Below the pieces are notes generated by a model. The model saw nothing but the letters and a program-made list of their open reading frames with translations. It was not told the DNA's origin and ran no database searches. A stretch of 32,759 bases of DNA from assembly GCA_009785595.1 (NCBI GenBank), contig WQVZ01000016.1:1-32759 (forward strand). Reading direction: 5' to 3'. Origin of the DNA: Defluviitaleaceae bacterium. Its GTDB lineage: Bacteria; Bacillota; Clostridia; Lachnospirales; WRAX01. Numbering within the stretch: position 1 is the first letter of the stretch; every line of letters begins with the position of its first letter. This document shows, one piece after another, positions 3,400-28,188 of the stretch. Both the position numbers and the translations under genes were made by a program.

Positions 3400-3996
3400 A
3401 TGGCTATTAATAGACAACCGGTTATGAAAAGGTCTAGAAGCTTAGGTATCGAGGCTTCTTTCACCGGGTCCAATAAAAAAAGCAAAAAAAAGCCGCCCAT
3501 GACCAGACGCAAAGTGAGCGAATATGGGCTGCAAATGAAAGAGAAGCAAAAGGCCAAGTTTTGTTATGGCCTGTTGGAAAAGCAGTTTAAAGGCTACTTT
3601 AACCGTGCAAGCAAAATGCGCCAGGGTATTGTGGGCGAAAACCTGTTGATGCTGCTGGAGTTGCGCCTGGATAACGTGGTGTATCGTATGGGCATGGCCC
3701 GCACACGTATGGAAGCCCGCCAATTGGTAAGCCACAAGCTTATTACCGTAAACGGCAGAAAAGTAAATATTCCGTCTTTTTCTGTAAAGCCCGGTGACAT
3801 CATAGAAGTCAATCCGGCTCGCAAGGACAGCGTGCGCTTTAAAGACATTTTGGCGTCCACGGACGGCAGAAGAGTGGAAAGCTGGCTGGATGTGGACACA
3901 AACAACCTGAGGGGCAGTGTTTTGACAACGCCCACTCGTGATCAAATTGACACACCGGTGAATGAAACCTTCATTGTAGAGCTATACTCTAAATAG
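3400..3996 (+). CDS. rpsD: 30S ribosomal protein uS4 (zinc-free form)
   Basis: Primary 16S rRNA-binding assembly protein and, in Bacillota, often an autoregulator. The 198 residues contain the S4 RNA-binding domain (residues about 90-150, RLDNVVYRMGMARTRMEARQLVSHKLITVNG). The N-terminus (MAINRQPVMKRSRSLGIEAS) lacks the zinc-binding cysteines of many S4 proteins, so this is the C-minus paralogue type common in Lachnospirales. GGAGG is 8 to 12 bases before the ATG. A T-rich imperfect inverted repeat (around 4011-4031) lies between rpsD and rpoA without a clear terminator. Confidence 0.98.
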   Translation: MAINRQPVMKRSRSLGIEASFTGSNKKSKKKPPMTRRKVSEYGLQMKEKQKAKFCYGLLEKQFKGYFNRASKMRQGIVGENLLMLLELRLDNVVYRMGMARTRMEARQLVSHKLITVNGRKVNIPSFSVKPGDIIEVNPARKDSVRFKDILASTDGRRVESWLDVDTNNLRGSVLTTPTRDQIDTPVNETFIVELYSK

Positions 3997-4050
3997 ACGT
4001 TTTAGAAATTTTTTCCAGAAACTTTTGGAAACAGAATGGAGGTTTGAATT

Positions 4051-5013
4051 TTGGTAGGATTTCAAAAGCCTCATATCGAAATTGCAGAGATGAGCCGGGA
4101 CGGCACCTATGGCCGTTTTGTTATCGAGCCGCTGGAGCGGGGATATGGCACCACTTTGGGCAATTCTTTGCGCCGGATATTGCTGTCTTCTCTTCCCGGG
4201 GCGGCCATTTCCAATATCAAAATTGACGGCATACTTCACGAGTTCAGCGTAATCGAGGGCGTGAAAGAGGATGTTTGCGAAATTATCCTCAATCTAAAAA
4301 ATGTGGCCATTCGCAATTCCAGCATCAGCGACGAACCGAAAAAGGCCCGCATAGAATATATTGGCGATGGGGAGCTTTATGCCAAAGACATTAAGGTGGA
4401 TGCGGATATCGAAATTTTAAACCCCGACTTGCACATCGCCACATTGTCCGGCAAAGACGCCAACCTGACGGCAGAAATGACCATCACCAAGGGCAGGGGA
4501 TATGCCAGTGCCGAAAAAAACAAGGCCATCAGCCAGGTTATCGGCGTTATCCCTGTAGATTCTATATACACCCCTGTAAAACGGGTTAATTTTCAGGTAG
4601 AAGACACCCGCGTGGGTCAGGTGACGGACTACGACAAGCTTGTGCTGGAGGTTTGGACCAACGGCACCGTTACCCCGGACGAATCCGTAAGCCTGGGTGC
4701 CAAAATATTTAACGACCACCTGGATCTTTTTATAAATCTAACAGAAAACGCCAAAGAAGCCACCATTATGACGGAAAAAGAGGACAGCAACAAGGAGAAA
4801 ATTTTGGAGCTGTCCATCGAAGAGATGGATTTGTCCGTCCGTTCCTATAACTGCCTAAAACGGGCAGGCATAAACACCGTGGAAGATTTGGCTAACAAAA
4901 CCGAAGAGGACATGATGAAAGTGCGCAATCTGGGACGCAAATCCCTAGAAGAAGTGCTTAACCGCCTGGCGGACTTTGGCCTGTCTCTTAGGCCCAGTGA
5001 AGATGCACAGTAA
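4051..5013 (+). CDS. rpoA: DNA-directed RNA polymerase subunit alpha
   Basis: Alpha subunit of RNA polymerase: the N-terminal domain (residues about 1-230) dimerises and nucleates core assembly, and the C-terminal domain (about 250-315) contacts UP elements and activators. Visible signatures are [29 protein letters not shown] near the start and the helix-hairpin-helix [32 protein letters not shown] in the C-terminal domain. At 320 residues it is full length. The start is a TTG at 4051, chosen because GGAGG (4038-4042) is 8 bases upstream and the ATG-less N-terminus aligns with the family. The product would begin [10 protein letters not shown]. Confidence 0.97.
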
Positions 5014-12606: not shown

Positions 12607-12649
12607 TGTAAATGCCTCCAAACATTATGAGTATGATATGGTGGGGATA

Positions 12650-12779
12650 AAACGCTTCGTTTACGAAGCGTTTGTTTCACAATCCGTAAACGGATTGTGA
12701 CCTCTACGGAGCGTTAACGCTCCGTGTTTTGCCCGCAATGAGTGATTTGCGGGCCAATAACGCTTCGTAAACGAAGCGT
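12650..12779. repeat. Cluster of five small palindromes (REP-like), array 1
   Basis: Hairpins in order: 12650-12673 (11-bp arms, AAACGCTTCGT), 12677-12700 (11-bp arms, TCACAATCCGT), 12706-12725 (ACGGAGCGT with ACGCTCCGT, fully palindromic), 12731-12754 (GCCCGCAA / TTGCGGGC, 8-base loop) and 12759-12779 (ACGCTTCGT / ACGAAGCGT). Four of the five share the pattern ACG-N-A-x-x-GT with tiny 2-base loops. They fill the 220-base gap upstream of the SLH gene; that gap holds no gene otherwise. A related array is at 21221-21296. Confidence 0.85.
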
Positions 12780-12827
12780 CTGCTACTCACGGCCATTGTC
12801 TACTGCATTAGTTTTTGGTGACTGAAC

Positions 12828-13365: not shown

Positions 13366-13637
13366 ACTTTTCGTGCTAGCCGGGGAAGTAGCGGCTCCCT
13401 GTACCTGAAATCCGCTATAGCAGGGGTGATGCCCATCCCGAGGCCATAACTTTTATGCAAGACCCGTATAAGCGGCGTTGACGGCTGAGTCTCGCGCAAT
13501 GACGACCGATGAACCGTGTCAGGGCCGGAAGGCAGCAGCACTAAGTCGGCACCGTCATGTGCCGCGAGGGCGCTTGGCCCGAGCTGGCTGTACGGTGGCG
13601 GTATGGGGGAAGTGTTCGACGGTGGGCGCACGAAATT
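13366..13637 (+). ncRNA. ffs: Signal recognition particle RNA, large (Alu-containing) type
   Basis: RNA scaffold of the SRP that binds Ffh and targets nascent membrane proteins. The conserved Ffh-binding domain is plain (GTCAGGGCCGGAAGGCAGCAG, then CACTAAG, about 13517-13545, with the GGAA tetraloop). The 5' part GTGCTAGCCGGGGAAGTAGCGG and CCTGTACCTGAAATCCGCTATAGCAGGGG matches the Alu domain of the Bacillus scRNA type. The ends close on each other: TTTTCGTGC (13368-13376) pairs with GCACGAAA (13628-13635). About 270 nt, the expected size for Bacillota. Ends are estimated from the closing helix. dnaX is not next to it, unlike in many Bacillota. Confidence 0.93.
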
Positions 13638-27312: not shown

Positions 27313-28188
27313 ATGAAATTTTATCAAGTAGACGCCTTTACGGACAAGCTTTTTGGCGGCAACCCCGCCGCTGTATGTCTGGTATACGACCAATGGCCGG
27401 AAGAATCCCTTATGCAGGCCATTGCAGCTGAGAATAATCTATCAGAGACGGCATTTGTGTTGGATGTAGCGGGTCAACTAGCCATACGCTGGTTTACTCC
27501 CACGGTGGAAGTGCCGCTGTGCGGTCATGCTACATTGGCGGCGGCTCATGTGATGTTTAACCACGAGAATTTTGGGGGGGACACCCTGGTGCTTAACTCT
27601 CGCAACCATGTGTTGAAAGTGGCTTACGAAGGGGATTTTCTTTCCGCATTAGATGAAGGAAAAATTGCGGCCAACCGCCCCAGCCACTCCGCAATTTTTC
27701 CTTCTGGAGTGAAGCGGAAAGATAGTGATGTGCTGACGCTGGATTTTCCGGCCGATCATATATGGCAAATTCCTTTTGAGGCCCATATGGACTGCTTTAA
27801 CGCCGCCCCGATGCAAGCCTGGCGTGGCACAGAAGAATATCTGTTGGTATTTGAAAATCAATCACAAATAGAAAATATGGTATGCGATTTGGCCAAGGCT
27901 ACCAAAATAGATATGTCCGGTTTTATTGTCACGGCACCTGCCGATATGCCTGGTGTAGACTTTGTTTCTCGCTACTTTGCCCCGAAAATCGGCATTGATG
28001 AAGATCCGGTGACGGGTTCGGCCCATACCCTGCTTGCACCATATTGGAAAGAGGTGCTTGGCAAGGATAATTTCACCGCCTTGCAGTTGTCTAGGCGGGT
28101 AGGGCGGTTGTTTTGCCGCATAGAGGGCGACAGGGTGAAAATAGGCGGCAAAGCCATTACATTTGCCGTGGGAGAAATATTATTATGA
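27313..28188 (+). CDS. PhzF family isomerase/epimerase with in-frame palindromic insert
   Basis: A 291-residue member of the PhzF fold (two diaminopimelate-epimerase-like halves). Clear motifs: FYQVDAFTDKLFGGNPAAVC, ENNLSETAFV (catalytic Glu about residue 46), WFTPTVEVPLCGHATLAAA, and the late RYFAPKIGIDEDPVTGSAH. Members are isomerases of varied, mostly unknown substrates. Relatives of this short type are about 260 residues; the surplus corresponds to 28 codons (27639-27722) that form a nested inverted repeat between the strands KVAYEGD and VLTLDFPAD. GGGAGGAG lies 7 bases before the ATG. The stop overlaps the next gene (ATGA at 28185), linking it to the KamB/KamC-like pair. Confidence 0.92.
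   Translation: MKFYQVDAFTDKLFGGNPAAVCLVYDQWPEESLMQAIAAENNLSETAFVLDVAGQLAIRWFTPTVEVPLCGHATLAAAHVMFNHENFGGDTLVLNSRNHVLKVAYEGDFLSALDEGKIAANRPSHSAIFPSGVKRKDSDVLTLDFPADHIWQIPFEAHMDCFNAAPMQAWRGTEEYLLVFENQSQIENMVCDLAKATKIDMSGFIVTAPADMPGVDFVSRYFAPKIGIDEDPVTGSAHTLLAPYWKEVLGKDNFTALQLSRRVGRLFCRIEGDRVKIGGKAITFAVGEILL
27639..27722. repeat. 84-bp nested palindromic element inside phzF
   Basis: Outer arms TCTTTCCGC (27639-27647) and GCGGAAAGA (27714-27722), 9 bp, and inner arms GAAGGAAAAATTGCGG (27655-27670) and CCGCAATTTTTCCTTC (27689-27704), 16 bp, are both perfect, with internal gaps of 7 and 9 bases and an 18-base loop. The length is exactly 28 codons and it is read through in frame, adding residues from about LSALDEGK to GVKRKDS to the protein. 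Confidence 0.85.

Follow-up and report, generated by a model that had tools for sequence, protein, structure and literature searches.

The phzF-family gene of the window (the whole stretch of 32,759 nucleotides that was analysed) carries in its reading frame a segment that is very probably (about 0.86) a copy of a small, non-autonomous, palindromic MITE-like mobile element of about 90 bp, inserted into a pre-existing phzF. Two sister copies enlarge two unrelated genes of the same genome, and related palindromes lie between genes. It makes up a new family within a class of elements that is already known but rare.

A nested palindrome within phzF

The gene that hosts the insertion occupies positions 27313 to 28188 of the plus strand, an open frame of 291 codons for a phzF-family isomerase that matches PhzC-PhzF of Pfam with an E value of 3.6e-56; the four relatives with a matching PhzF start have 258 to 263 residues. 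Inside this open frame, and exactly where the first-pass annotation had placed them, two nested inverted repeats were found on the plus strand. The outer arms, TCTTTCCGC (27639 to 27647) and GCGGAAAGA (27714 to 27722), showed 100% complementarity over 9 bp, and the inner arms, GAAGGAAAAATTGCGG (27655 to 27670) and CCGCAATTTTTCCTTC (27689 to 27704), 100% over 16 bp. The loop between them, CCAACCGCCCCAGCCACT (27671 to 27688), belongs according to the alignments to a core common to the intergenic relatives described below, and it is without the inner hairpin seen in the addA copy and in most of the type B elements.

The palindrome is genuine, and chance does not account for it. RNA folding of the region gave -40.5 kcal/mol (z score, -4.35), and none of 200 shuffled sequences was equally stable. 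In a sample of 431,426 bases, made up of the window and 20 stretches of the same genome, only seven nested palindromes reached 22 perfect pairings, the one in phzF (25 positions) being among them; a single shuffled copy of the sample yielded one, with 23. The sister copies in the AEC and addA genes, whose arms are imperfect, remained below 22 in this scoring.

Further palindromes of the genome were recorded on their own account. On contig C1 (locus L161), a 180-codon open reading frame (ORF) is flanked by two groups of perfect hairpins lying side by side (3921 to 4086 and 4608 to 4780), each differing in sequence; their loops have 3 bases and their arms 20 to 34 bp. In the window, the short palindromes AACGCTTCGTTTACGAAGCGTT, CAATCCGTAAACGGATTG, ACGGAGCGTTAACGCTCCGT and AACGCTTCGTAAACGAAGCGT are clustered in an inter-ORF gap (12641 to 12790), some 600 bases before the gene for the signal recognition particle (SRP) RNA.

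Two sister copies in unrelated genes

The first-pass annotation had proposed a search for further copies, and it succeeded: two were found in frame in unrelated genes, together with five related intergenic elements (see below). The assembly to which the window belongs as the whole of contig 16 comprises 1.69 Mb in 92 contigs (completeness, 91; contamination, 2.7). A DNA search of it recovered the element on contig C36 (13857 to 13925; 90% identity; E, 1.2e-20) and, in two pieces of 82% and 84% identity, on contig C34 (5920 to 6024). The C36 copy sits in a frame of 364 residues that matches Mem_trans of Pfam (E, 3.6e-25) and, below the model cut-off, the auxin efflux carrier model TIGR00946; to judge from these matches, the host gene is that of an AEC-type permease. 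For its part, the C34 copy sits in addA (TIGR02785; E, 4.7e-201), in a frame cut by the end of the locus.

The segments encoded by the three coding copies (DFLSALDEGKIAANRPSHSAIFPSGVKRKDSD, GTLFMSSEGKIAANRPSRSTIFPSGMKWKEYD and DALSMLKEGKIATNPIAWIRNQPSHSAIFPPGMKCKEYN) have in common the peptide EGKIAxN...PSxSxIFPxGxKxK. A hidden Markov model (HMM) of the three peptides gave exactly three matches in the genome, with E values of about 1e-23, the next best having an E value of 0.3. The element is about 93 bases long, and the inserts add 31 codons in phzF, 31 in the AEC gene and 38 in addA, where the 7 additional codons correspond to another hairpin within the loop. The length of each insert is divisible by three, and none has a stop in the host frame.

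The three coding copies agree in the strand and the frame of the element that are read, the frame being the sole one that is open in all of them (open frames: +0, -1 and -2 in phzF; +0 and -1 in AEC; +0, -0 and -2 in addA). With two or three of the six frames open per copy, the probability of such an agreement would be about 1/18, were any open frame sufficient, so the shared frame alone is no proof of selection on the peptide. Since the pN/pS values between the coding copies, over the whole element, were 1.18, 0.68 and 0.49, selection on the inserted peptide appears weak or absent, and none is clear.

Empty sites in homologues and codon-level junctions

A search of 31 genomes gave PhzF matches in 12 relatives, with the host genome itself as the thirteenth. 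A segment of 31 residues was missing, as a clean gap, from all 12 aligned homologues. The AEC set (14 loci given, of which 12 rows, from 9 genomes, were aligned) was likewise devoid of its 31-residue segment in 12 of 12 rows, the closest relative aligning contiguously across the junction (query positions 125 to 157). The 38 residues of the AddA segment were missing from all 13 rows, which were drawn from the 21 relatives that had matched; near the insertion site, the AddA alignment is variable. Given that no homologue row contains the corresponding segment, those of phzF, AEC and addA are, on this comparative evidence, insertions, and the expectation of orthologues lacking the segment was thus borne out, not only in PhzF. 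The same relatives, G011 and G014, supplied the closest kin for each of the three host genes.

The size of the insert had to be revised. Instead of the 28 codons of the first-pass annotation, the orthologue alignment, with junctions compared at codon level with six relatives, gave 31 codons (93 nt, 27637 to 27729 of the plus strand, FLSALDEGKIAANRPSHSAIFPSGVKRKDSD); 84 nt is only the end-to-end span of the outer arms. A solved structure of the PhzF family (1s7j) aligned in sequence as two blocks flanking the insert. The loop positions of the inserts rest on alignments of this sort, because the single-sequence AlphaFold model (pLDDT, 34.9) was useless.

Codon-exact junctions were taken from the nearest relatives only. 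With a slash at the point of insertion, they read GGG GAT / TTG in PhzF, AAG GAT / AAG in AEC and TAT GAC / GTG in AddA, an Asp codon (GAT or GAC) standing at the junction of all three host genes; the background of Asp codons in 14 ORFs of the window was 291 of 4764. In the occupied genes, the codon at the left flank is GAT in phzF (27634 to 27636, plus strand), GGC in AEC and GAT in addA, and the insert ends on the right with GAT in phzF (27727 to 27729, plus strand), GAT in AEC and AAT in addA. A 3-bp GAT target duplication is possible, exact in phzF (one of the three copies) and consistent with AEC and addA only given later changes. The terminal inverted repeats that mark a MITE are present: they comprise 9 bp in phzF, and the ends of the three-copy consensus, with one undecided letter set to A, pair over 11 positions, more than those of phzF itself.

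Related intergenic elements and paired changes in the arms

When a covariance model was built from the three copies, it detected one more locus in the same genome (C1:75241-75358; E, 1.1e-9), along with further, weaker matches. Five elements, on contigs C1, C4, C10, C12 and C30, were classed as type B; they share the loop core, whereas their arms differ from those of the coding copies yet remain complementary, and their loop usually carries an added hairpin like that of the addA copy. All five lie outside recognised genes: one is 3' of recX, one occupies the gap between two facing ORFs, one is upstream of a sigma-70 region 2 gene, one is 3' of an ORF close to the end of a contig, and one (L040, 1501 to 1746) separates the aptamer of a NiCo riboswitch from the start of a cation-efflux gene, the usual place of the expression platform. 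By their arms, the coding copies constitute a separate type, type A, of which no example was found between genes with the covariance models in this genome. A second model (R2) recovered all eight loci from which it was built.

When the three coding copies were compared, changes on both sides were seen in 4 of 31 pairs, against 0 to 2 in slid controls, and 21 of 500 shuffles scored as high. In the outer arms the paired changes concern two neighbouring positions, G-C and C-G in phzF versus A-T and T-A in AEC and addA; in the inner stem, G-C in AEC stands against A-T in phzF and addA. Coming from three sequences, these paired changes are suggestive only of an upkeep of complementarity, and they may reflect copying from different source elements or repair in place. 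In the eight-row alignment, 12 cells had changed on both sides compared with a shuffle mean of 6.4, and 0 of 500 shuffles were as high; both the alignment and the structure had been picked using the very sequences tested, and two of five measures were not above the shuffles.

Palindromes of related appearance were noted at other places. At C7:24527-24638 (L145) and C2:21370 (L149, around 1501), nested palindromes have outer arms akin to types B/C and other inner stems. The relative G012, of the same family and another genus, has an intergenic nested palindrome (L151, 1460 to 1600) whose loop resembles the type A core (E, 8.7e-5), 3' of an ORF that by eye resembles a chemotaxis receptor; from its sequence, it is plausibly a distant nested palindrome of the element family.

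Searches beyond the known copies

At the DNA level, no full match to the element was found in 58 genomes, the host's included, beyond the copies already described; one match, in G043, covered one arm only. No convincing match to the peptide HMM appeared in 392 genomes, five matches at the level of the order (E, 0.004 to 0.01) covering only 11 to 15 positions. With R2, at most 16 first-look candidates per genome were scored over 295 genomes of the order, so that negatives are weak there; of its two matches in relatives, one is L151 and the other (L152) a terminator-like hairpin.

The pattern GGNAAAATTGNRR had 33 matches in the host genome versus 3 in the control, and 30 were made into loci. Those inspected, besides the known copies, had no matching second arm, and several were, by eye, GKIV codons of ABC-transporter-like genes. 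Matches to a 21-base pattern in Mangrovimonas and Lentisphaerae (two) had no nested palindrome and were taken as chance. The type B/C outer-arm pattern found 6 sites, against 8 in the reversed control; five were exact and lay in palindromes already known, and no transposase or insertion sequence with the element ends was found with this pattern in the host genome.

No Rfam family was found on the element, the addA copy had no match to plasmids and phages, and two element patterns had none to viral contigs. NCBIfam and Pfam hold models of the Rickettsia palindromic elements (RPE). Searched with the three peptides, they gave no family match beyond one at an E value of 1, and descent from RPEs is for this reason left unsupported. 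In the literature, no in-frame palindromic family in Clostridia was found among open-licence PubMed Central papers.

Proposed mode of insertion and alternative explanations

The mobile unit would be the hairpin, recognised by some transposase either as a folded single strand or via its inverted ends. A unit of about 90 bp plus the putative GAT duplication would make up a multiple of three with a stop-free frame, and its insertion in the right phase and orientation would give a longer protein and not a destroyed one. The sites used would lie between two strands of PhzF, in a stretch between helices of the AEC permease and in a variable stretch between domains of AddA, where 31 to 38 extra residues would be tolerated. 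The peptide, predicted to be translated, would be a by-product or passenger, probably with no function of its own.

A stable hairpin between identical GAT codons, as found in phzF, could also suggest ribosome bypassing, in which the hairpin would be transcribed and skipped between the matching codons, leaving a protein of normal length. In a byp element the take-off and landing codons match; here the flanking codons do so in only one of the three copies, the pairs being GAT/AAT in addA and GGC/GAT in AEC. Moreover, bypassing would need neither inserts that are in-frame multiples of three nor the absence of stops, and all three copies have both. Although bypassed palindromic elements are on record in a yeast mitochondrion, in the passages of PMC6649704 that concern them, and offer a precedent, we regard this explanation as very improbable. 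An ordinary lineage-specific indel, that is, a loop grown in place and palindromic by chance, would accord with the varying lengths of loops and with the variability of AddA around its site; closely similar DNA encoding the same peptide in three unrelated genes refutes it, and its likelihood is negligible. The draft state of the genome, with its many contigs and its contamination value, might in turn raise the suspicion of a chimeric bin or an assembly artefact. Yet the three host frames are intact, the inserts are in frame and the three genes have the same nearest relatives, so that an artefact is hardly credible.

More weight is due to the possibility that an intergenic terminator-like repeat landed in genes by accident, its frame reflecting survivorship and no special fitness for coding sequence. 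The five intergenic relatives, such as those next to recX and the NiCo riboswitch, agree with it, as do the number of open frames per copy, which makes a shared frame no great coincidence, and the nearly neutral pN/pS values. Against it, the coding copies have arms of type A, distinct from those of the intergenic type B, and no type A element was found between genes. We consider accidental landing unlikely but a serious contender, differing mainly in emphasis from the preferred reading of a MITE-like element inserted into phzF.

Comparison with known palindromic elements

RPEs (Ogata et al. 2000, 2002) are described, in the relevant passages of PMC2229807, PMC10969869 and PMC3767692, as long palindromic hairpins of several families with coding and intergenic copies, inserted in frame into unrelated conserved genes, encoding a conserved peptide and missing from orthologues elsewhere. 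The present element resembles them in its hairpin, its coding and intergenic copies, its in-frame inserts, its common peptide and the empty orthologues. Thus, the first-pass suggestion that the palindrome behaves like the protein-coding palindromic elements of Rickettsia agrees with those descriptions (PMC10969869, PMC3767692), and several traits of this functional class, a long hairpin at several unrelated loci, with in-frame inserts of one peptide and empty homologues, were found here. It differs from RPEs in that its copies are fewer (three coding ones, in a single genome), no family of NCBIfam or Pfam matches its peptides, its coding and intergenic types have a common loop core and different arms, an Asp (GAT) codon stands at all three sites, and its host is probably of another phylum.

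The accounts in PMC2996958 name two further hosts of stand-alone in-frame palindromic coding insertions: Wolbachia, with its palindromic elements, and Methanocaldococcus jannaschii, with coding palindromic repeats; the likeness is one of description, and the hosts are unrelated. The element would work like those of Rickettsia and Wolbachia, yet it seems to form a family unrelated to either. PARCEL, as outlined in the same paper (PMC2996958), has a palindromic coding sequence too, but consists of tandem 25-residue repeats, associated with membrane proteins, and not of single insertions.

ERIC/RU-1 and YAPL/RU-2 of enterobacteria and QMITE1/2 of Coxiella, in the parts of PMC2229807 and PMC5896051 that treat them, are MITE-like elements whose readable frames are in some cases joined in frame to genes; they share these traits with the present element but are longer (127 to 400 bp) and belong to Proteobacteria. 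BOX, RUP and SPRITE of the pneumococcus are likewise small structured repeats of a Gram-positive genome. The portion of PMC3049150 devoted to them speaks of intergenic placing, gene disruption and free-standing ORFs, with SPRITE terminator-like, but of no in-frame enlargement of conserved proteins. Identity with REP/REPIN, extragenic palindromes of 20 to 40 bp as characterised in the relevant section of PMC3733652, was rejected, as the present unit is of about 90 bp and lies inside genes.

Significance

The host is probably Gram-positive, because its AddA fits the Gram-positive-type model (addA_Gpos), a large SRP RNA is encoded at 13371 to 13633 of the window and the genome has a NiCo riboswitch, located beside a type B element. 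Tentatively, and with the odds against it, we would go further and see here coding palindromes that make up a lineage of their own, belonging to a Gram-positive clade and assembled from nested exchangeable modules. In such a lineage a conserved loop core would be combined with different arm pairs, complementarity would be kept by paired changes, and one arm type would have become adapted to genes through its unit length and one stop-free frame, which would let it lengthen proteins where an Asp (GAT) codon stands.

As far as the passages cited above report, selfish palindromes that lengthen proteins are known from few lineages: Rickettsia, Wolbachia and Methanocaldococcus, with scattered cases in enterobacteria and Coxiella. 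The presence of such a family in another lineage, probably a Gram-positive one, would demonstrate repeated origins of this route, also outside intracellular parasites. Its low copy number and the clean empty sites in related genera would make target choice, dependence on frame and the effect on the host protein testable.
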